Both the position numbers and the translations under genes were made by a program. From Methylophilus sp. TWE2 (GTDB taxonomy: Bacteria; Pseudomonadota; Gammaproteobacteria; Burkholderiales; Methylophilaceae): DNA of 64,000 nucleotides. This document shows positions 53,686-63,998 of this stretch, piece after piece. Each line of letters starts with the position of its first letter. The stretch's first letter is position 1. The notes under the pieces are model-generated. The model saw only the letters and a list, made by a program, of their open reading frames with translations, had not been told where the DNA came from and searched no databases. The stretch spans positions 1,054,001-1,118,000 of the forward strand of contig NZ_CP012020.1 of assembly GCF_001183865.1 (NCBI RefSeq), in the 5' to 3' direction.

Positions 53686-54837
53686 CTAGCTGATCCGCCA
53701 CCCTTTTCGTTTGAAAAGCCAATATGCCAAACACCACAATAACAATGAAAGCAAAAACAGGTCTATCATATGCGCGAGCACTAAGGCGCCTGGCATGTGT
53801 TTTCCACCAAGCCAGTGTTGATACAACTCAATGGCATGCGATTCAAACATCCAGTTTTTGACGATAGCAAAGGCTTTAAACTTGCTGGCCAATGAAAACA
53901 CCACACCCATCACCATCAAGTAACTAAAACCGACCAAACTTGCGGTGGTTTGATTTTTATTCACGCTGACAATGATTGCCGCTACTGCCATAAATCCTAT
54001 GCTTGAAAATAACATCACAGGTATCACGGCGACAAACAATGGAAGAATAAACGACCACGATGCGCCTAAAATGACTTTATAAATCAACACGCTCACCAGG
54101 ATCGAAACTGAACTATGAAATAACAGCTTGGCAAACAGCATCTGCCCGGGGCTGGTGGTCGTCAAGGCCATGGCCTGCAAAATGCCTCGCTCGCGTTCAT
54201 GGCCGGTAAAACTGATAAACAAAGCCATACACAAAAAATACTGTGCCGAGAAAATCATCATCGCGCCTATCATGCCTTTGGCCTCCTGGCTGCCCAGATC
54301 TATTTTTCCGAGCGTTTTTGGGGTAGCTGATTGTTCTTTGATGGGCAGCAATTTTTGTGATAACGCAATGTGGGGATTCAGGCGGGCGACTTCGGTTAAC
54401 ACCCAACGATTAAACTGCGCCATCTGTGTATTGTTTGCATCCACCGCTTTATAGGTGATCGCAATCTGGTTTCTGTCGCCGCCTGGGGCAGTCTGCTCAA
54501 TAATCTCTGCCAGACAGCGCAGTTTGGCAGGGTAGTGGATGCCTTGGGCTAGTTGCTCCTGGCTCACTTTTATAAAGCGAACTTTTTTTGCATGTTTACT
54601 GGATTTCAGTGCTTGAATCAGCTCAGTGTCTAGCGTGTAAACGACTCCGCAAGGTAACTGCTCCTGTCGCTTGGCTATCTGGTTCGCCCGGTTCTCAATA
54701 CTCACCAGAAAAGCCATCAATACAATCAAGCCGGCTGCCATTAAGGCTGCCGGGTTGCGTTTGATACGAAACCATTCTTTGCAATACAGTATCCATAAAC
54801 GCTTCCAGTAGCCGGGTGTGTTGAGAGAGGCATTCAT
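53686..54837 (-). CDS. ABC-2 exporter permease, second set
   Basis: 383 residues. N-terminal helix (about 30-47), a large extracytoplasmic region (about 50-195), then five helices (about 195-375). The GHERERGILQAMALTTTSPGQ segment corresponds to the NatB hallmark in the first set, so the two exporters are paralogous. Start ATG 54837 overlaps the ATPase stop by 4 nt, so its translation depends on ribosomes reaching the C-terminal part of that frameshifted gene. Confidence 0.85.
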   Translation of the reverse strand: MNASLNTPGYWKRLWILYCKEWFRIKRNPAALMAAGLIVLMAFLVSIENRANQIAKRQEQLPCGVVYTLDTELIQALKSSKHAKKVRFIKVSQEQLAQGIHYPAKLRCLAEIIEQTAPGGDRNQIAITYKAVDANNTQMAQFNRWVLTEVARLNPHIALSQKLLPIKEQSATPKTLGKIDLGSQEAKGMIGAMMIFSAQYFLCMALFISFTGHERERGILQAMALTTTSPGQMLFAKLLFHSSVSILVSVLIYKVILGASWSFILPLFVAVIPVMLFSSIGFMAVAAIIVSVNKNQTTASLVGFSYLMVMGVVFSLASKFKAFAIVKNWMFESHAIELYQHWLGGKHMPGALVLAHMIDLFLLSLLLWCLAYWLFKRKGWRIS

Positions 54838-55725
54838 TGATACGCTTCCCCGGTCAATTTTTTAAACACATCCTCAAACCTGAACTCACGTGAGTGGACG
54901 CGAACACAATGTTCTGTTTCTATAATCCGTGCCAGTGATTGTCTGTGCTCAGGGCTATCCAGGTCATAGCTCTCGCGTCGCATTTGCCCCCCCACGGTCA
55001 AACTGTACGTCACAGAACCTTTCTGCATGACGCGTGATAAATGCGGTTGGTGTATCACAGTCAAGCAGCTTGCCTTTTGCGATAATTGCCACCCGGTCAC
55101 AAATCTGCTCGACCTCTTCCATATCATGTGTGGTTAAAAAGACAGTCGTGCCATTTGCAGCCAGATCCTGCATCAACCTGCGAACCAGCTGAATGGAATG
55201 CGCGTCCAGGTTGGCAGTTGGCTCATCAAAAAAAACCAGTTTTGGACGGTGCAGCAATTCGCGCGCAATCAATAGCTTCTTTTTCATGCCCTTCGAATAG
55301 CTACGCACTTTTACATGTGCTGCTTCAGTCAGCTGTAGCACAGCCAACCAGTGGTCAATTTCGTGAGTTCCCACACCGTACAAGCGGGCATACAGGGCCA
55401 GGTTTTCATAACCTGTCATATCCTCATAATGGTTCTCGGTATCGGGTACATAACCTATCATATCCTCATAATGGTTCTCGGTATCGGGTACATAACCTAT
55501 CAAGGGTTTAACCTGCTCAAGCCCTTTAGGCATGGCATAACCTAACACTTCAATGCTGCCTGAAGTCGGCTTCAAGGCGCCGTTGAGGGCGCGGATAGTG
55601 GTTGTTTTCCCTGCGCCGTTCGGGCCTAAGAAACCAAAGAGTTCCCCCTGTTTTATTTCCAGTGAAAGGTTACCCACAGCAACAAAGTTACCAAATTCAA
55701 TCTTTAGATGATGAATGCTTATCAC
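54834..55725 (-). pseudogene. ABC exporter ATP-binding protein with frameshift and internal duplication
   Basis: From GTG 55725, with GAGG eight bases upstream. Walker A GPNGAGKT (34-41), signature YSKGMKKK (143-150), Walker B LVFFDEPTANLD (163-174) and H-loop TTH are intact. The upstream frame ends in TGA at 54964; the downstream frame (through EDVFKKLTGEAY, a normal C-terminus) runs to 54834. The 892-nt length is one base too long, and a seven-C/G run (54987-54993) lies exactly where removing one base joins the frames to 296 residues. A 14-residue segment is also duplicated in the Q-loop region. Could be a pseudogene, a phase-variable gene or a base error. Confidence 0.75.
55416..55499. repeat. 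Perfect 42-bp tandem duplication inside the ATPase gene
   Basis: 55416-55457 and 55458-55499 are identical 42-mers. In the protein they encode IGYVPDTENHYEDM twice in a row (about 76-89 and 90-103), followed by a single TGYENL. A single copy is usual in the family, so this is an in-frame duplication of the Q-loop region. It preserves the frame and so looks recent. Confidence 0.9.
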
Positions 55726-55743: not shown

Positions 55744-56844
55744 TCAGCCAAGATTAAATCGGTTTAAAATCTCTAATACAGGCTGCAAAAGGTTCGCATC
55801 TAATTGAGGCCCCATCGGCAAACTTAACACCTCATTCGCGTATTGTTCAGCGACAGGCAAACTGCCTTGTTTTAAACCCAATTTTTGATAAGCCTTTTGC
55901 AAGTGAGGTGGAATAGGGTAGTGAATTAAATGTCCAATGCCACTCGCTGTGAGTGTTTTTTGTAGAGTCTCACGTTGCCTAGATCTCACTACATATAAAT
56001 GCCACACCGGCTCGGCCCACTCTGGCACTCGGGGTAGCGTTAAGTTGCTATTATTGAGTTGATCATTGTAGGTGTCGGCAATCACTCTTCTTCGTTCATT
56101 CCACGCATCTAAATATTTGAGCTTTACAGCCAACACGGCGGCTTGTATGGGGTCTAATCGGCTATTCACGCCTTGCTCAAGGTTGTGATACTTTACCTCG
56201 GAGCCATAGTTCCCCAGCATGCGCACACGCTTTGCAATCGCTTCATCATTAGTCGTAATCGCACCACCATCGCCCAAAGCACCAAGGTTTTTTCCAGGGT
56301 AAAAACTCCAAGCGACAACGTCACCATGGCTGCCAATCGGCTTGCCACGCACTTTAGAACCATGTGCCTGCGCAGCGTCTTCTACTACGTAGAGTTTGTG
56401 TTGTTTAGCCAAAGCACAAATCGCATCCATATCCGCAGGGATGCCATACAAATGTACAGGCATGATCACTTTCGTTTTTCCTGTAATGGCTTTTTTAATG
56501 CCTTCCACGTCTATGTTATAACTGCCACTAGGCGGCTCGACGGGGACAGGGATTGCACCCACGGCACTCACCGCCAGCCAGGTGGCAATAAAGGTATGCG
56601 AAGGCACAATCACTTCATCTCCAGCGCCCACGTCTAAAGCACGTAAGGCTAAAGTCAACGCATCCAAGCCATTGCCCACGCCCACACAGTATTTTGAGTC
56701 AGTGTATTCAGCATAATCATTTTCAAATGCTTCAACCTCTGGCCCGCCAATATACCAGCCAGAGCGGCTGGCACGTAATACCGCATGGTCTAGTTCATCA
56801 GCTAGTTCGTCATAAGCGGCTTTTAAATCTAAAAAGGGAATCAT
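55744..56844 (-). CDS. DegT/DnrJ/EryC1-family sugar aminotransferase, FdtB-like
   Basis: 366 residues. PLP enzyme using glutamate as amino donor for a nucleotide-linked keto-sugar. Starts MIPFLDLKAAYDEL. The catalytic Lys is in SFYPGKNLGALGDGGAI (K185), preceded by VVEDAAQAHGS. With the FdtA-like gene (58788) it would convert dTDP-4-keto-6-deoxyglucose via the 3-keto isomer to a dTDP-3-amino-3,6-dideoxyhexose (FdtA/FdtB pathway). The ATG overlaps the stop of the acyltransferase gene by 4 nt. No FdtC-like N-acetyltransferase is present in the window. Confidence 0.86.
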   Translation of the reverse strand: MIPFLDLKAAYDELADELDHAVLRASRSGWYIGGPEVEAFENDYAEYTDSKYCVGVGNGLDALTLALRALDVGAGDEVIVPSHTFIATWLAVSAVGAIPVPVEPPSGSYNIDVEGIKKAITGKTKVIMPVHLYGIPADMDAICALAKQHKLYVVEDAAQAHGSKVRGKPIGSHGDVVAWSFYPGKNLGALGDGGAITTNDEAIAKRVRMLGNYGSEVKYHNLEQGVNSRLDPIQAAVLAVKLKYLDAWNERRRVIADTYNDQLNNSNLTLPRVPEWAEPVWHLYVVRSRQRETLQKTLTASGIGHLIHYPIPPHLQKAYQKLGLKQGSLPVAEQYANEVLSLPMGPQLDANLLQPVLEILNRFNLG

Positions 56845-58778
56845 AGTTTCAAATGTTCATTGATGATGTCATTGGCTATTTGTAGGGATTTCTTGTGTGT
56901 AAAGTGGTTTGTATCAACATACAAAAGTTCGTCTTTGAGGTTCCTTGCGTAGCAATAGCGCGCATCGCAAAAGTATTTTTCCGTATCCACTACTGAAACG
57001 TTGGCTGGCACTGCGTCCACTACAGGAGTCATAGGGGCAATAAACCGTCTATAGTGATCAACTGAAATGGCCAACTCACCCTTTGAGTCATTAATTTTTT
57101 TGCGCATGTAAAACTCCGGCACACTGCGAAACATTTTGGGTGGCGTTTTAATCAGCACCACTTGCTTACCGTGTTCTGAAAGTCTTTTCAAAGTAGCAAT
57201 CATGCTTTTTTGCACAAGGGCAGGTGAGGTGAGGTGATCACCAATTTTAATGGGGGTGCCAATATGGTTCATGCCACCAATAAAATTTCCTATCCACACA
57301 ACATATTGCAAATTCGAATCTCTCATTATCTGCTCAACAGTTTGAGAGTGTCGTGTAGGATTGCAAGCGTATTGGGGATGATGCAATCCCTCAACAGGTG
57401 GACACGCATTGCTAATCACAGCAACAAATGCAACTTTCTTTTTCTTTAATACTTCGTTAAGGCCATACACCATGGAGCCTGCCAAGCTATCACCCCATAA
57501 CACGCCAATCGGTGCTTGCTCTGCATCGCCTATGACGCAAACATTTTCCCCTAAGCGAGACTTCAGCGCATGTGTATTGCAAAATTGTTCACCCCAGCCA
57601 CGCTGTGCGCGAATGGCGCTGTAATGCTTAATCCCCTGCATCCCCGCGCGCTGTTGTTGCCCGGCATCCGCTTGCAAAAACATGCCCGCGCCCGCCAATG
57701 CTCCAATCGAGAGCACTGAAATAGCAAACAGCTGTGCACGTGACAAAAACACTTTGTTTCTAAACGGTTGCTCTACCCATTTCCAGCTTAGCCAGGCTAG
57801 CAATAAACAAAGCGCAATCAGGCCATAGCCCCAATCGGTGCCGTTATGGTAACTAAACTGCAAACGGGCAAACGCCAACACCGGAAAATGCCATAAATAC
57901 GCGCTGTATGAAATTAAGCCTATCCACACCAATACACGATTTGATAACAACACATTAAATAAGCCTTTAGCCTGGCCATGCTTGATCACCAAAAATGTAC
58001 CAAGGCAGGCTAGCAAGGTCACCCAACTTACTGGCAAATTAAGGCTAAAAGCTAAGGCAATTAATGCTAAACCTAGCATAGGCCACATATCTTGCTTAGG
58101 CGATGCAGCAGGAATAGGTTGGTTTTGCAAGGTCAGTGCCGCCATCACGCCAAGCAACAACTCCCATGCGCGTAAGTGTGGCATATAGTAGTTGGCGCTA
58201 TCGGTGGGTAACTTAACAACAAAATAACCGTAAGAAATTAGCGTCAATGTAAAAAAAATAGGTAGTGCAAAGCGGCGAAAATAGCGCCAAACCAAGTAAA
58301 GCACCACAGGAAAAATAAAGTAAAACTGCTCTTCAACAGCTAGGCTCCAGGTGTGCAGCAATGGCAGTTGCTCGGCAGCTGCTGCAAAATAGCCGCTTGT
58401 ACCGGCAAAATGAACATTGGCATGAAACAGACTGGCACTAAACAAGCTTTTGCCAAAGTCGATTAGCTCGTGTGGCAAAAGCCAAAACCACGCGACAATT
58501 GAAGTAATTACCAATACTATGGTAAGGGCAGGCAGAATGCGCCGAGCACGACGCTCGTAAAAATGTAACAGTGAAAATTGTTTATTGCTTAAGTCGTTAA
58601 GCAAAATGCCTGTGATCAAATAGCCCGAAATGACAAAAAAGATATCTACACCCAAATAACCATTGCGCAGGAAACTAAAGCCGGCATGAAATAGCATCAC
58701 CGAGAGCACAGCAATGGCGCGCAGGCCATCAATTTCTGGGCGATAATTAAAACTGTGGGGTTTAATTAAGACTGTCAT
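56841..58778 (-). CDS. O-acyltransferase, AT3 membrane domain plus SGNH domain
   Basis: 645 residues. The N-terminal acyltransferase-3 domain (about 1-345) has ten hydrophobic helices, starting with EIDGLRAIAVLSVMLFHAGF, whose His is catalytic. The C-terminal SGNH domain (about 390-645) shows GVLWGDSLAG (the GDS block) and DTNHFTH (the late DxxH block). AT3-SGNH proteins such as OafA and OafB acetylate O-antigen or capsule sugars. Position between the FdtA- and FdtB-like genes suggests it decorates the same sugar. Full length. Confidence 0.9.
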   Translation of the reverse strand: MTVLIKPHSFNYRPEIDGLRAIAVLSVMLFHAGFSFLRNGYLGVDIFFVISGYLITGILLNDLSNKQFSLLHFYERRARRILPALTIVLVITSIVAWFWLLPHELIDFGKSLFSASLFHANVHFAGTSGYFAAAAEQLPLLHTWSLAVEEQFYFIFPVVLYLVWRYFRRFALPIFFTLTLISYGYFVVKLPTDSANYYMPHLRAWELLLGVMAALTLQNQPIPAASPKQDMWPMLGLALIALAFSLNLPVSWVTLLACLGTFLVIKHGQAKGLFNVLLSNRVLVWIGLISYSAYLWHFPVLAFARLQFSYHNGTDWGYGLIALCLLLAWLSWKWVEQPFRNKVFLSRAQLFAISVLSIGALAGAGMFLQADAGQQQRAGMQGIKHYSAIRAQRGWGEQFCNTHALKSRLGENVCVIGDAEQAPIGVLWGDSLAGSMVYGLNEVLKKKKVAFVAVISNACPPVEGLHHPQYACNPTRHSQTVEQIMRDSNLQYVVWIGNFIGGMNHIGTPIKIGDHLTSPALVQKSMIATLKRLSEHGKQVVLIKTPPKMFRSVPEFYMRKKINDSKGELAISVDHYRRFIAPMTPVVDAVPANVSVVDTEKYFCDARYCYARNLKDELLYVDTNHFTHKKSLQIANDIINEHLKL

Positions 58779-58787
58779 TACAATGAG

Positions 58788-59198
58788 TTATTTAGCCCAG
58801 CGTGCCCGCATAAAATCATCATAGTCGCGGTAGTAGTCTTCTTCATAATATTTGTTTGAAGCCAATACCATCAACACCGAGTTGGATGAAAAATTATCTA
58901 TCTCACGCCAAATCATGGGGCAGACATAGAGTCCGTAATATGAGCGGGCGAGGTGAAATTTTTTCTTGTTTTTGCCATCGTCCAGCGTGATATCAAAACT
59001 GCCGGACATCGCAATAATCAATTGATGCAGCTCTTTATGTGCATGCCCGCCACGCTCAGCACCGCCGGGTACGTCATACACATAGTAAACACGGTTAATA
59101 TCAAAAGGGATGTGGTTGTTGCTCTCTACAAATGTTAAATTGCCTTGTGGATTACTAATTTTAGGCAGTTCGATAATACGGCAGTCTTCTAAGGCCAT
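58788..59198 (-). CDS. dTDP-sugar 3,4-ketoisomerase, FdtA/WxcM-type cupin
   Basis: 136 residues; a single cupin (beta-barrel) domain with LPKISNPQGNLTFVESNNHIPF at about 10-31, RGGHAHKELHQLIIAMSGSFDITLDDG at about 49-75 and an SNKYYEEDYYRDY ending. The His residues of RGGHAHKELHQ are the expected catalytic positions in FdtA/TylM3-like enzymes. The reaction is dTDP-4-keto-6-deoxyglucose to its 3-keto isomer. Related WxcM cupins lacking such a His are not isomerases; here it is present. Upstream of the acyltransferase by 10 nt. Confidence 0.82.
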   Translation of the reverse strand: MALEDCRIIELPKISNPQGNLTFVESNNHIPFDINRVYYVYDVPGGAERGGHAHKELHQLIIAMSGSFDITLDDGKNKKKFHLARSYYGLYVCPMIWREIDNFSSNSVLMVLASNKYYEEDYYRDYDDFMRARWAK

Positions 59199-59206
59199 GA
59201 TTTTTC

Positions 59207-59878
59207 CTACACTGAAAATGCTTTATCTCTTAAGTTGAACTGATTTAAATTACTAAGTGCTTCTTGCATATCCTCTTTAGTGTCAATTTCGTTGCTGATA
59301 ATGACCTTTGCACTTAAAGGCAAATAATCTTTTAACCTTTCAAATACAGCACCTCCAGGTTGTTGAAAGTGCCTTGGGCTTATCCAAACGATATTGGCCC
59401 ATTCGTAGGGTGAAGATTGCTCTCTAGAAAAAGCTGTGATTTGCTCTTGAGCGTTTAAATGAACAAATACAGCATCTTTTGTTTTTGCAGGTGTGATACC
59501 AACAAGCGTCTGATTAGGTTGGCATGCATTTAAAAATGCTTCCAGACTAGATTGCTGGAATAAAATATCGCCATCCAAGAACAAACAATCCTCAGTGACG
59601 TAAGACGCGCCCATGGCATAACTATGAAGTGTTGTCGTTGAGCGATAGCCTGGGTTTCTGACAATGATTGTTTCTGGGCGTAATTGTCTGACCAAGTCAA
59701 TGACAAATTCTTCTTCAAAACCAACGACTACCCGCACATCTTCAATATGATCAAGTAATTTTAATTGGTGCTCTAAAATCGTCATGCCGCCAATCTCAAT
59801 CAGGCATTTTGGTTTACCCATCCCTAATCTTGACCCCAACCCTGCTGCCGCTATAACAGCGTGTTTAACATGCGACAC
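59207..59878 (-). CDS. Nucleotidyltransferase, LicC/MobA-like (probable cytidylyltransferase)
   Basis: 223 residues. NTP-binding signature AAGLGSRLGMGKPKCL at about 11-26, with the metal-binding Asp in FLDGDILF. The GMGKPKCLIEI form resembles LicC (CTP:phosphocholine cytidylyltransferase) and related CTP-using enzymes. No membrane helix. It would make a CDP- or NDP-activated alcohol or sugar for the glycerophosphotransferase-like domain encoded upstream. Overlaps the HAD phosphatase gene by 28 nt, an unusually long overlap. Confidence 0.75.
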   Translation of the reverse strand: MSHVKHAVIAAAGLGSRLGMGKPKCLIEIGGMTILEHQLKLLDHIEDVRVVVGFEEEFVIDLVRQLRPETIIVRNPGYRSTTTLHSYAMGASYVTEDCLFLDGDILFQQSSLEAFLNACQPNQTLVGITPAKTKDAVFVHLNAQEQITAFSREQSSPYEWANIVWISPRHFQQPGGAVFERLKDYLPLSAKVIISNEIDTKEDMQEALSNLNQFNLRDKAFSV

Positions 59879-60456
59879 AATGCACTCCCCGAAAATGTAA
59901 CAAAATCAGCCATTTGTACTAATTGTTTAGCAGGTGGGTGAACGCCACCATAAGCAATACGGATATCTGCTGCGTCAAACATCGGCATATCATTCACACC
60001 GTCACCAACTGCTACCACGCGTTTAAACTGCTTTTTTAACTCTAGCACCGGATGGTTCTTGCGTAATACAGATCCCACTTCTGCTAATTGACCATCTTTT
60101 ACAATGGCTGTAGAAGAAAAACACATGCAGCCTAGCTTTTCTGCCAAAGGTGCAATCCATACATCCAAATTACCTGTCACGATGGCACATTGATGAGGGT
60201 TTTTCTTGATAAAACTCACCAAATTTTCGTCAAGTTCTACGTCATCTACAATGCTTTTCACCTCACTGATTGGCGCTGACTTTAAACATGCGCAGCGCAA
60301 TCTAAAAGAGTCTTCAAATGGGATTGCGCCATTGATGGTGAGAGAAGTGAGCAAACGCATTTCCTTCTCGAGGTTTAACGAGCCAGCAATCAATGGCAAT
60401 AGTTCTTGTTTAGTGACAGTGCCATCCAAATCAAATGCAAAACAGGTGTCACGCAT
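59851..60456 (-). CDS. HAD-superfamily phosphatase, SerB-like
   Basis: 201 residues. Nucleophile motif FDLDGTVTK (D9, D11), second motif IVTGN, and VAVGDGVNDMPMFDAADI near 150, which give the complete HAD active site. The length and cap resemble phosphoserine phosphatase-like (HAD-IB) enzymes. Its overlap with the nucleotidyltransferase suggests a pair: dephosphorylating an intermediate next to nucleotide activation. Could equally recycle a phosphorylated sugar by-product. Confidence 0.8.
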   Translation of the reverse strand: MRDTCFAFDLDGTVTKQELLPLIAGSLNLEKEMRLLTSLTINGAIPFEDSFRLRCACLKSAPISEVKSIVDDVELDENLVSFIKKNPHQCAIVTGNLDVWIAPLAEKLGCMCFSSTAIVKDGQLAEVGSVLRKNHPVLELKKQFKRVVAVGDGVNDMPMFDAADIRIAYGGVHPPAKQLVQMADFVTFSGSALCRMLNTLL

Positions 60457-60457
60457 A

Positions 60458-61204
60458 TCAGCTAGCCTTTTGAATATGAATCATGCTGTAAAACTGTTTA
60501 GTTTCAGCGCGATTGTTTAACTTATTGTCTGAGTACAAAGGTAAAAATGCGTAGCTTGCGACATGTTTGGATAGAACGCTATCAATGAGCGCTTTGAGCT
60601 CTGCTTCCGTTCTATAAATAGCGCTGTAGCTTGAGGAAAGCTCATCTGACCAAAAATCATCCAGTGTTAAGCGCTTTTCTAACGCCAGAGGCTCTCTGAG
60701 GTAAATTAAACAGTCTTTATCTGCTACCGCTAAAACGCCTTCTAATAACTTAATAATCTGATCATCATTCAGATAAATCATTAGGCCAGCAATCAGCATG
60801 CGGTTATAGGGTGCAAACTGAGTGACCGACTCAAAATGTAAGTCTTCAGCCCCTGCAACATGAAAATGCACGTTAGGTATTTGTAATTGTTGTTTGGCGA
60901 TTTCAATCAAACCTGCACTAAAATCAATGCCGTTATAGCATTTAACATGGGGATGTATCAATGACGCCCAACGCCCAATTCCACAACCGATGTCCAGTAA
61001 GGTTTCCCTGCCTGTTAGATTAAGCAAAGGCAAAGCAAAGCTTTTCTCATAGGCGTCACGTTCTTCTGCCAATGCCGGGTTTTTATCTTGATAGAGCACA
61101 GCAGTTAATGGATGCTCAGGATTAAATCGCTTCGCCCTGTCAGAAAAAAACGCCTCAACTGATTGGGTATTAAGGGATTGTTTTTTACCTTTTATTCTCG
61201 CCAT
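60458..61204 (-). CDS. Class I SAM-dependent methyltransferase
   Basis: 248 residues. SAM-binding motif LLDIGCGIGRWASL (about 69-82), NGIDFSAGLIEIAKQQL, and a following acidic strand AGAEDLHF. The N-terminus (NTQSVEAFFSDRAKRFN) is typical of small-molecule or glycan methyltransferases. It lies 16 nt behind the fusion gene and 1 nt ahead of the HAD gene. A methylated sugar or polymer end group is a plausible product; the acceptor is unknown. Confidence 0.85.
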   Translation of the reverse strand: MARIKGKKQSLNTQSVEAFFSDRAKRFNPEHPLTAVLYQDKNPALAEERDAYEKSFALPLLNLTGRETLLDIGCGIGRWASLIHPHVKCYNGIDFSAGLIEIAKQQLQIPNVHFHVAGAEDLHFESVTQFAPYNRMLIAGLMIYLNDDQIIKLLEGVLAVADKDCLIYLREPLALEKRLTLDDFWSDELSSSYSAIYRTEAELKALIDSVLSKHVASYAFLPLYSDNKLNNRAETKQFYSMIHIQKAS

Positions 61205-61220: not shown

Positions 61221-63998
61221 TCATTTACTAAATCTAAACAAATACAATCTAGCCGTCATCCCATGCGCCACACTCTCACTGATTGTCGCTTCAGAAACAA
61301 TACTCAACCCCAAGCTTGCCATAAAATTTTTAAACAATTCCAAACTTCGAATTTTGGTGACTAACCCGCTTGGTGCTTGAATAGTGTGGTCTTCTTGGGT
61401 GAGTGAAAATTGGTCAGATAATAATAAAAAGCCCTGCTCGGTTAAGTTTGTTTTGATTGCATGCATTAGTTTTGCAAAGTCAAGGTTATCAATAATGCTA
61501 GAGGTTAAATCGCTGCAACTAAACAAGTCGGGCTGTTTTTTTAACTGCATTTCTTGGTAGCTGGTATTCACAAAAGAAACGTTGAGGATATTAAATTTTT
61601 GTTTACGTTTATTGGCTACATGAATCAGTTTGGGTGAAATATCTAATGCGTCTAGCTGTTTGCATTTTTTGCTTAATGGCAAGGTATATCTGCCTTCGCC
61701 ACAGCCTAAATCAATGGCGTAATCTAGCGTAGGTAACAATGACAAGGCTTCCTTAAAGGCTTTGTCTTTTAGCTCATAAAATACTGGCGGTGCATTAAGC
61801 GTGCTTGGCGCATTTTTCCAATAGTGATTGGTTTTGTTTTGCAACGCTTCTTCACTGAGTGGGTTAGGGTGCCATTCTGTTTCGCTGAGTTCTTTGCTTA
61901 ATTCTTCCACAATGTAATCCGCAATCCGTTGCCCGGCTTTGCCATCCAAGCCAAATAAATATTCATCGGTCACGCCTATACGCTCTTCACGCATGGGGTC
62001 TTGCCCTTTAGAAACCATGTCAATAAACGGTGGAATATCTTCGGGTAAATTAGCGCGATAATAGTGGTCTACCAAATCACCATCATCATTTAAGCCAAAA
62101 CCTTCTGGGTGGTGTAAGTACATGATTGGATTTTTTGTAGGTAAATATTCCAACAAGAATGATCCTACATCTGTCATGATGGCGTTTGAAGCTGCGAAAG
62201 ACTCCATACAGTCAGCATTTTCATCTAGCCAAAGATTATCTTTTTCAGCACACAGTTTTCTAAATTCAACCTCACCTGACTCGTTCCAAACTTGTTGGCG
62301 CAACATTTCTTTAAAAAACAAAGGGTGTGGGCGAATAATGAAAAACACATCAGGTCTCGCTTCAACCTGTTGCATAATCATTTGGTTATAAATGCGATAC
62401 GTTGACCAACTGGCAGGCAACCCAACAGAAAAATGTGGTGACCATAAAACGACTTTTCGCCCTGCAATTTTTGTTTTTAGTTGTGCTGAAATAGGATAAC
62501 TGACGAAGTCTTGTTGGCTATCAAACTTAGGATGGCCTGTAACTACTGTGTGAGCATCCCCTATTGCACAGTGTCTGGCGTACATGGCTTTGTTTCTATT
62601 AGAGCGAAGGAACACTCGCCATGCTTGTTTTTGTACGTCTGTGCTAAATTGATTTTGAATGTTTTCAGCCCCCCCTCCCATTTCAATACCATATGGAACA
62701 TAGGCTGTTCTGATACCTAAACTATGTAGATTGTGACTGTGCAAAAGTTTTACACGGGTTGAGTCATAGGGATTTTGTAAAAATATCAAATGCGGCTTAA
62801 AAGAGTAAACAAGATTTTCAGCTAAGGTTTCCAGGGTTATATTTTCTTTCTTAAACAATTCATCCAATTCATTTAGTTGTTTGAATTGATCTTCAGCTAC
62901 ATGAATAAATGGCGACTTTATAACTTTGACTTCAATCCCTGGGCTTTTTTTGAGCGCAATATAAACACTTTTCAGAGATGGCCAAACTGAGGCATGTTGA
63001 ATGGTGAGTAATACTCTTATTTTTTTAACATTTATAGTGTTTGCGTTATCGTTTTGCTTTGCTTTGCCGAAAGTATTGATTACCTTTATTAATTCATTCT
63101 GATCGATTTCAAAATCAGCGTGGTTGATATCTATCCAGTTACCTGTTTGCACCGTTTTACCAAGCACATAACAAAGCTGATGTCCTAAAATTTTGGCGAT
63201 GTTACTAAAATACCAATAGTTAACTACTTGGGAGTTGTTCATTAAAACAACCAATTCAGCACCTTCGGGGGCCCAAAGCATGTTAACTAATGCCGCCCCA
63301 GAGGGCGAAACAATAATTTTGGCATTACTAAAAACACTTATTTGCGATTCAAAATCCAATAAACTTGGATCAATCGTTACAAAGCCGTTGTTTTCTAATA
63401 GCTGCTGAATCTCTAACTCATTAACCACGAGCCGGGTACTTTTTTTACCGCCGGGCGTACGTTTAATAAATATTTTTTCTGGTTGGTTTTCTTTGTTTTT
63501 GACATTGGCCAGATTTAAAAACGTATTCCGGGTTTTCTTTATGACCTCAGGATGAAAAAGTGCTTGGGATGGGCTGGCAAGTTCTTCTTCGTTTTTGCCC
63601 ACTGAATTGGCATTTGGTCTTTGGAATACGACGTTAGAGACGGGGCTGACCCATTGAGCTTGGGTAAATTCATAAAAGCATAAATTTTTTATAGGGATTA
63701 ATTGAGATTGACTAAAGCCCAACATATATAGCGCTTCGAGCATACTTGAAAATGACTTCTCGAAAACCAGTACTTTATATTCAGCTAAATCTAATCCTGA
63801 CTGTTTAAGTAAAACTAGCTGAGGTAAAAACTCTGTCATCCAATGCGCATAGTTGAATGAGCCGTTGCCGCACAGGTTAATAACTTTTTCATCTATTTTG
63901 ATATGACCAATCAAACCTCTGTAAGCGATTAAATTATCTTTAATTAAAGCATTACCTTTTGCCTGCTCCCAAGTCTCCCATGTGCTTGCAGCAAACAT
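61221..63998 (-). CDS. Trimodular glycan enzyme: GT61-like, glycerophosphotransferase-like and SAM methyltransferase domains
   Basis: At least 926 codons, perhaps continuing past the right edge. Domain 1 (about 1-320): DUF563/GT61 glycosyltransferase, with NYAHWMTEFLPQ (49-60) and IVSPSGAALVNMLWAPEG (229-246). Domain 2 (about 325-700): CDP-glycerol glycerophosphotransferase-like, with RPHPLF (556-561) and TDVGSFLLEYLP (609-620). Domain 3 (about 715-925): Rossmann methyltransferase with DLGCGEGRYT (763-772). These functions are usually separate proteins. The fusion predicts one enzyme that transfers a sugar, adds a phosphodiester-linked unit and methylates. The first ATG in view is at 63998, but the start may lie outside. 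Confidence 0.78.
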   Translation of the reverse strand: MFAASTWETWEQAKGNALIKDNLIAYRGLIGHIKIDEKVINLCGNGSFNYAHWMTEFLPQLVLLKQSGLDLAEYKVLVFEKSFSSMLEALYMLGFSQSQLIPIKNLCFYEFTQAQWVSPVSNVVFQRPNANSVGKNEEELASPSQALFHPEVIKKTRNTFLNLANVKNKENQPEKIFIKRTPGGKKSTRLVVNELEIQQLLENNGFVTIDPSLLDFESQISVFSNAKIIVSPSGAALVNMLWAPEGAELVVLMNNSQVVNYWYFSNIAKILGHQLCYVLGKTVQTGNWIDINHADFEIDQNELIKVINTFGKAKQNDNANTINVKKIRVLLTIQHASVWPSLKSVYIALKKSPGIEVKVIKSPFIHVAEDQFKQLNELDELFKKENITLETLAENLVYSFKPHLIFLQNPYDSTRVKLLHSHNLHSLGIRTAYVPYGIEMGGGAENIQNQFSTDVQKQAWRVFLRSNRNKAMYARHCAIGDAHTVVTGHPKFDSQQDFVSYPISAQLKTKIAGRKVVLWSPHFSVGLPASWSTYRIYNQMIMQQVEARPDVFFIIRPHPLFFKEMLRQQVWNESGEVEFRKLCAEKDNLWLDENADCMESFAASNAIMTDVGSFLLEYLPTKNPIMYLHHPEGFGLNDDGDLVDHYYRANLPEDIPPFIDMVSKGQDPMREERIGVTDEYLFGLDGKAGQRIADYIVEELSKELSETEWHPNPLSEEALQNKTNHYWKNAPSTLNAPPVFYELKDKAFKEALSLLPTLDYAIDLGCGEGRYTLPLSKKCKQLDALDISPKLIHVANKRKQKFNILNVSFVNTSYQEMQLKKQPDLFSCSDLTSSIIDNLDFAKLMHAIKTNLTEQGFLLLSDQFSLTQEDHTIQAPSGLVTKIRSLELFKNFMASLGLSIVSEATISESVAHGMTARLYLFRFSK

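Follow-up and report, generated by a model that had tools for sequence, protein, structure and literature searches.

At one end of a 64,000-nucleotide stretch of the Methylophilus sp. TWE2 genome (contig NZ_CP012020.1, positions 1,054,001 to 1,118,000; hereafter the window), there is a minus-strand gene whose product joins a GT61 glycosyltransferase, a TagF/TarL-like phosphotransferase, and a methyltransferase. We propose that this fusion protein is probably a cytosolic multi-domain enzyme that decorates a glycan, in a system like those of the Type A glycan of C. difficile and the b-type glycan of P. aeruginosa PAO1, and that it most likely acts on the Flp pilin of a Tad pilus. In the Type A glycan, a phosphodiester links N-acetylglucosamine to N-methyl-threonine (PMC10714395), while the b-type glycan has a deoxyhexose and a moiety that was assigned as N,N-dimethylthreonine by mass spectrometry (PMC11833859). 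In the published model, a HAD protein that resembles phosphoserine phosphatase (PSP-like) makes phosphothreonine, a nucleotidyltransferase converts this to CDP-threonine, a TagF-like enzyme transfers it, and a methyltransferase methylates it; CDP-threonine is the authors' hypothesis (PMC10714395, PMC11833859).

The preliminary description of the window had claimed three catalytic domains in one open frame of more than 920 codons, with the true start further to the right, and both claims held up. The frame is open over 925 codons at window positions 61221-63998, and the ATG within it is internal. The gene starts 261 nucleotides (nt) past the window edge, so that this much of its 5' end is outside, and as a whole (G000:C1:1115221-1118259, where G000 is the genome under study) it encodes 1,012 amino acids (aa) with no internal stop. 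All three domains score over their Pfam cut-offs: GT61 at residues 137-336 (63252..63851, minus strand like every feature given below; PF04577, Glyco_transf_61, 84.9 bits, cut-off 27), the phosphotransferase or GPT domain at residues 495-784 (61908..62777; PF04464, Glyphos_transf, 23.1 bits, cut-off 22.1), and a class I S-adenosylmethionine (SAM) methyltransferase domain, MTc, at residues 849-943 (61431..61715; Methyltransf_25, 44.2 bits, cut-off 27). A profile of 17 relatives strengthens the weak Pfam call for the middle domain: across the PDB, the sole match of this profile up to E = 10 was the ribitol-phosphate polymerase TarL (8va1, E = 1.6e-5), and this match spans both the HP block and the D-x-x-S...E-Y...K-P block. 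The conserved GPT module runs from about residue 403 to residue 800; the HP block is kept across the relatives (alignment A5), and the first TagF motif position reads PYG by eye.

A base error that joins three separate genes had been named as a possible refutation, and it can be ruled out. There are seven full-length homologues, found by a search that scored the 8,000 candidates with the most words in common: P0001 is 95% identical, and P0002-P0007 are 53-56% identical over 98-100% of the length. (P0004, P0006, and P0007 have no precomputed PF04464 label.) Also, the entire fusion is encoded by 3 of the 187 Methylophilaceae genomes in our family sample, this genome and two others, with one further copy that is interrupted by a contig end; the frame here has no stop, and we found no point in favor of an artefact. 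A protein search of the genome at E<=0.001 found no paralogue of the fusion. As for viruses, 19 pattern matches lay in viral contigs, and none of these encodes a relative.

The neighboring genes include the enzyme types of the published cassettes. On the same strand, the order is a glycosyltransferase with tetratricopeptide repeats (TPR-GT, 1,651 aa), a GT2 glycosyltransferase, a hexapeptide acetyltransferase (AcT), the fusion, a second and separate SAM methyltransferase (MT), a HAD-IB protein, a LicC-type nucleotidyltransferase (NTP), FdtA, an AT3-SGNH protein, and DegT. MT (60458..61204, 248 aa, by Pfam) is the enzyme type of PA1088 and CD0243. The HAD-IB phosphatase/phosphotransferase (59851..60456, 201 aa) resembles phosphoserine phosphatase by Pfam and by profile (PDB 1f5s, E = 1.3e-28), has conserved motif columns, and is the enzyme type of PA1089 and CD0241. 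NTP (59207..59878, 223 aa) belongs to the MobA/LicC type by Pfam and profile, is a predicted CTP:phospho-amino-acid cytidylyltransferase, and is the enzyme type of PA1090 and CD0242; its profile matches 6pd1 (E = 2.6e-17), which we take to be PntC, and the CTP:phosphocholine cytidylyltransferase 1jyk (E = 1.4e-13). This genome has the PSP/ThrH-like HAD, the cytidylyltransferase-like NTP, and the separate SAM methyltransferase, as well as the TagF-like phosphotransferase at the level of the fold family. For the sugar, there are an FdtA-like dTDP-keto-6-deoxyhexose isomerase (58788..59198, 136 aa, Pfam FdtA 196.7 bits) and a DegT/DnrJ aminotransferase (55744..56844, 366 aa, Pfam 379 bits) that is FdtB-like by context, and another part of the genome encodes an RmlB with a score above its cut-off. 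Upstream of TPR-GT are cpaA and then the Flp pilin gene, with a gap of 78 nt between flp and cpaA. The gaps along cpaA, TPR-GT, GT2, AcT, fusion, MT, HAD, NTP, FdtA, AT3, and DegT are 22, -4, 4, 11, 16, 1, -28, 8, 9, and -4 nt (minus means overlap), and a scan found no terminator-like site on the minus strand in the gaps between these genes. The run from flp/cpaA to DegT is likely co-transcribed. Promoter counts were not above those in shuffles; terminator-like counts exceeded the shuffles in L003 (16 vs 9.8), but those of the window did not (9 vs 11.4).

The triad of MT, HAD, and NTP recurs with the phosphotransferase in other genomes. We drew 17 loci from genome contigs by GPT motifs alone, and 12 of them (L007, L009-L016, L018, L020, and L021) have the triad at the GPT gene; in L015 and L016, MT is fused to GPT. 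(In L007, from a metagenome-assembled genome or MAG, the HAD gene lies in two overlapping frames at L007:13842-14550, which is either a real break or an assembly error.) Genome-wide searches of 11 of the 17 genomes found NTP in all six with the triad and found no NTP relative at E<=1e-10 in any of the five without it. Similarly, NTP is present at E<=1e-12 in 2 of the 187 family genomes, both among the three with the whole fusion, for which the chance is 3/17391 by hand arithmetic that ignores kinship. MTc accompanies GPT in 7 of the 17 loci, and because these include L008, which has no triad, the probable substrate of MTc is the transferred group or the sugar, not one particular donor. In a census of 369 genomes of the class, which scored at most 7 candidates per genome, only G000 had the MT family at E<=1e-30; this points to rarity, we think, not to absence. 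When we searched a database with the MT profile, 551 proteins matched at E<=1e-15, and among the 120 of these that were listed, with abbreviated names and most rows nameless, none had the name of P. aeruginosa or C. difficile.

Two of the GPT loci have a different set of genes. L008:13156-17667 and L023:11121-15675 encode an NTP transferase, a protein of about 130 aa, a second NTP transferase, DUF711, a methyltransferase, and an Asp/Glu racemase, adjoining GPT. This six-gene alternative cassette is common to a Methylotenera MAG and Pantoea wallisii (the NTP genes of L023 were read by eye).

The domains of the fusion are shuffled in its relatives, of which we found 96 at E<=0.001. For example, GPT-methyltransferase proteins occur in Pseudomonas and in an Acidovorax MAG, P0080 is a GPT protein with a radical-SAM label, and in some Methylophilaceae, GT61 is fused to phosphotransferase domains whose alignment with this GPT is poor (e.g., P0030 of Methylotenera mobilis). 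L116 and L117, from Pseudomonas, encode MT-GPT-GT2 proteins of 1,764 and 2,029 aa with weak terminal matches of the GT4 type, below cut-off. In these proteins, the three functions have been fused independently, with a different family of glycosyltransferase. L118 has a methyltransferase-GPT protein with the domains in reverse order. In L116 and L118, the gene order is flgL (by eye), MT, HAD, NTP, the GPT protein, and, further on, fliC, as published for PAO1; L117 has two extra genes before MT.

From the domains, gene order, synteny, and co-occurrence that we computed, we infer each catalytic step as well as the identity of the amino acid, sugar, and target. RmlB, FdtA, the DegT aminotransferase, and the hexapeptide acetyltransferase would make dTDP-3-acetamido-3,6-dideoxyhexose, and the GT61 domain would place this sugar on a protein-bound glycan that was begun by TPR-GT and/or GT2; we find it likely that GT61 adds the core sugar. 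HAD would produce a phospho-amino acid, for which the analogy with Type A suggests threonine, and the LicC-like enzyme would convert it to the CDP derivative. MT would then N-methylate the CDP-activated amino acid, the GPT domain would take the phospho-amino acid off CDP and attach it to the sugar through a phosphodiester, and the fused MTc domain would add one more methyl. We are quite confident of CDP-dependent phosphotransfer by GPT. That the donor is an amino acid, and that MT is the N-methylating enzyme, both seem probable to us, and for a second methyl from MTc the chances seem about even.

The same machine might instead take its phospho-group from a CDP-(methyl)ethanolamine/choline-like or CDP-polyol donor. 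This has some appeal, given that the NTP profile matches 1jyk and 6pd1, that the best PDB matches of the MT and MTc profiles are phosphoethanolamine N-methyltransferases, and that phosphorylcholine has been reported on Flp1 (PMC6182317). But the methyltransferase matches say little, and we gave up on reading the substrate from likeness to PDB entries: a control methyltransferase from the flagellin cluster of this genome, in a single-sequence search, lists phosphoethanolamine enzymes as the second and third of its four matches. Furthermore, the HAD profile matches phosphoserine phosphatases, and HAD is the enzyme type of CD0241 and PA1089, whose clusters have a threonine product. So we consider a donor other than an amino acid to be unlikely, though well worth keeping in mind.

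Our case for Flp as the acceptor comes from the Tad locus. The Flp pilin matches Flp_Fap at residues 16-47 with 19.5 bits, below the cut-off of 32.2. Divergent from the flp/cpaA run are the Tad genes (secretin and T2SSE by Pfam), and in the locus as a whole Peptidase_A24, Secretin, and T2SSE score over cut-off, with CpaE and TadB named by eye. cpaA of this type is found in 9 of the 187 family genomes. TPR-GT comes directly after it in eight of these and is one gene off in G125, and all nine have a Flp relative in the same cluster, upstream of cpaA (partly seen in G120 and G125). The genes beyond TPR-GT vary: we scanned 20 chosen proteins, several of which had no match, and saw AT3 or hexapeptide acyltransferases, GT2, UDP-sugar dehydrogenase, and GT41. 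By analogy, these variable genes resemble flagellin glycosylation islands. As a precedent for a phospho-compound on such a pilin, phosphorylcholine has been reported on Flp1 of Aggregatibacter (PMC6182317). For Flp itself as the target, we see roughly an even chance.

Alternatively, the same chemistry could serve flagellin, or several filament proteins, with the location beside the Tad genes being incidental. Close relatives of the fusion gene do lie beside fliC. L007, which has a full-length relative at 56% identity, carries fliC and fliD in one cluster with GT2-AcT-fusion-MT-HAD-NTP-FdtA-DegT. In one Pseudomonas genus, there are five NTP copies in 4 of 249 genomes, and four of the copies are in flagellin loci (L110, L116, L117, and L118); L110 and L118 have MT, HAD, NTP, GPT, AcT, DegT, FdtA, and fliC all together. 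G000 has a flagellin gene too: fliC is at 1.86 Mb, about 0.74 Mb from the fusion, and a weaker match at 1.84 Mb is probably FlgL, by eye. Thus the cassette is beside a flagellin gene in L007, L110, and L116-L118 and not in G000.

This fliC has neighbors of its own. At L025:4215-11503 (G000:C1:1860215-1867503), there are a fusion of phosphoenolpyruvate (PEP) mutase and cytidylyltransferase (PEP mutase 409 bits, cut-off 320), a phosphonopyruvate decarboxylase (483 bits, cut-off 313), a 329-aa protein with no Pfam match, a cytidylyltransferase, a methyltransferase, and a Glyphos_transf-TPR protein. By its gene content, this cluster looks like a system for a phosphonate-bearing flagellin glycan, and a literature search on flagellin phosphonate gave no match among the papers available to it. 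Also near flagellin is a giant TPR-GT41 protein of 2,508 aa (L025:11627-19153). L061:8476-17529 encodes a TPR-GT41 protein of 3,017 aa with GT61 and GT2 parts in one chain, and three fliC relatives are nearby.

That the fliC of G000 has its own modification-like cluster, with PEP mutase, phosphonopyruvate decarboxylase, cytidylyltransferase, methyltransferase, and Glyphos_transf, argues against flagellin as the target of the fusion protein. So does the position of the fusion in line with flp/cpaA, whose steady partner is TPR-GT. We therefore rate flagellin, or several filaments, as an improbable choice for G000, about on a par with the other donors discussed above.

Relatives are found beside other filament genes as well. 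L015, L016, L017, and L020 are within flagellar gene clusters (by eye, from the beginnings of open reading frames), and L018 and L021 adjoin type IV pilin genes (by eye; in L021, the pilin and a T2SSE/MshEN protein were confirmed by Pfam). We recognized no filament gene in L009-L014, L019, L022, or L023, of which L009-L011, L013, L019, and L022 were compared just with FliC, FliD, Flp, and Tad proteins of G000. Among the family genomes, 13 others have a strong match to the GT61 domain (in two pieces in G071), and in 7 of the 13 (G046, G144, G108, G109, G110, G120, and G060) the DNA that we fetched includes fliC. In G147, fliC is on another contig, and in G137 the stretch stops at a contig end. 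In support of the proposed sugar, the fetched DNA of 12 of the 13 has FdtA together with DegT (G147 is cut, and DegT is split in G071).

The preliminary description went on to suggest that the protein builds and end-caps a phosphodiester-containing polymer, with the methyl group possibly setting chain length as in WbdD. The chemistry that this implies, a phosphodiester with methylation in a Gram-negative bacterium, does fit the arrangement of genes, while the building and capping of a polymer and WbdD-like control of chain length are not supported here. WbdD-type chain terminators have a kinase domain next to the methyltransferase; Pfam finds no kinase domain in the fusion, and its scan of the 12 genes from Flp to DegT detected no flippase, no polymerase, and no initiating sugar-phosphate transferase. 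The neighbors match the enzyme types of the Type A and b-type cassettes instead, and relatives occur next to flagellin and pilin genes. In favor of a methyl-capped surface polysaccharide is the fifth Pseudomonas NTP copy (L010:4117-16652, from Pseudomonas entomophila), where Polysacc_synt_2/Bac_transf proteins, a standalone GT61, and an ABC-2 exporter pair accompany the cassette; L013 resembles L010 in its GT61 and ATPase. A polysaccharide substituent is plausible there, though the ATPase has only 246 aa, with one domain found. P. entomophila has a second copy of the cassette beside fliC (L110). For G000, we think that a polymer role is quite improbable.

Several observations weigh against our preferred reading of a glycan-decorating enzyme that acts on Flp. 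The PF04464 score of the fusion exceeds its cut-off by just 1 bit. TagF has a His-Gly motif where the GPT domain has PYG, so the donor of GPT may differ. The match to CD0241-CD0244 and PA1088-PA1091 is a match of enzyme types and gene order. Only in G000 is the fusion with its phospho-amino-acid cassette beside Flp, and given that the cluster is beside flagellin in close relatives, the fusion could act in trans on the flagellin of G000. In L008, the fusion occurs with another donor cassette in place of the triad. Most GT61 matches in the family are joined to other phosphotransferase domains or to none. Finally, there was no fliC in the stretches fetched around the GT61 islands of G067, G069, G078, and G071, nor in those around the weaker GT61 matches of G062, G075, and G125, which do have FdtA and DegT.

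The other genes in this part of the window have less to do with our argument. Between FdtA and DegT is a fusion of an AT3 acyltransferase with SGNH (56841..58778, 645 aa, by Pfam) that possibly O-acylates the glycan. An ABC transporter pair begins 18 nt past DegT (53686..55725): the ATPase (54964-55725) is nearest to the DrrA model, below its cut-off, and the permease (53686-54837) matches ABC2_membrane_3. This pair is probably outside of the glycan system. The ATPase gene contains a 42-bp tandem repeat at 55407-55502 (2.3 copies, 98% match), which doubles 14 residues and leaves the frame intact.

More broadly, we tentatively suggest, at somewhat less than even confidence, that a portable cassette tags unrelated filament subunits (flagellin, type IV pilin, and Flp/Tad pilin) with CDP-derived, methylated phospho-amino acids. 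Its donor modules would be exchangeable: MT-HAD-NTP, the six-gene NTP-DUF711-racemase set of L008 and L023, or the PEP-mutase phosphonate set at the flagellin of G000. Fusion of glycosyltransferase, phosphotransferase, and methyltransferase would have happened repeatedly, with GT61 in Methylophilaceae and with GT2 in Pseudomonas. The phosphodiester-linked methylated-threonine tag has so far been documented on the flagellins of two pathogens; if we are correct, then methylotrophs, enterics, Stenotrophomonas, and others also have the chemistry, which has passed among flagella, type IV pili, and Tad pili. In a BLASTP survey from 2014, PAO1 was alone, besides C. difficile, in having the three donor genes in a cluster, with relatives of CD0241 and CD0242 occasionally paired elsewhere (PMC4441256), and the triad is more widely distributed in our data. 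Harmless environmental hosts would also become available for studying the unproven steps (CDP-threonine and the order of methylation), with three activities in one protein. The published mutant data from C. difficile leave the timing of methylation open, and a fused methyltransferase makes it testable. The domains and the pathway are of known kinds; in the literature that we searched, as far as it was available, we found no prior description of the GT61 three-domain fusion, the extra methyltransferase, or the Tad location.

How does this system compare to known ones? Flp1 of Aggregatibacter actinomycetemcomitans is similar in that a phospho-compound, phosphorylcholine, is on a Tad/Flp pilin; unlike here, it was detected by antibody, and the available text describes no gene cassette of this kind (PMC6182317). 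The TagF/TarL teichoic acid polymerases (PF04464) share the HP block and the D-x-x-S...E-Y...K-P block with the GPT domain, which differs from them in that the first TagF motif was not seen by eye and in adjoining an amino-acid-type donor cassette rather than polymer genes. The variable regions of enterobacterial flag-2 loci likewise have TagB-like phosphotransferase genes within a flagellar locus, and these have been tied to teichoic acid synthesis (PMC6993521), whereas L015, L016, and L020 (not L017) carry HAD-NTP and MT. C. difficile 630 has the same enzyme types in cd0240-cd0244: a PSP-like HAD, a nucleotidyltransferase like CTP:phosphocholine cytidylyltransferase, a methyltransferase, a TagF-like phosphotransferase, and a glycosyltransferase (PMC10714395). 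There, they are separate genes beside fliC, while in G000, GT61, GPT, and an extra methyltransferase are one protein; G000 also has a second methyltransferase, sugar genes that point to a 3-amino-3,6-dideoxyhexose, and Flp and CpaA as neighbors. PA1088-PA1091 of PAO1 differ in that PA1091 has a GT2 domain and lies next to fliC, and the available account mentions no methyltransferase as part of a fusion (PMC11833859). On the other hand, PAO1 has a glycosyltransferase fused to a phosphotransferase in PA1091, together with MT, PSP-like, and NTP genes and a deoxyhexose core (PMC11833859).

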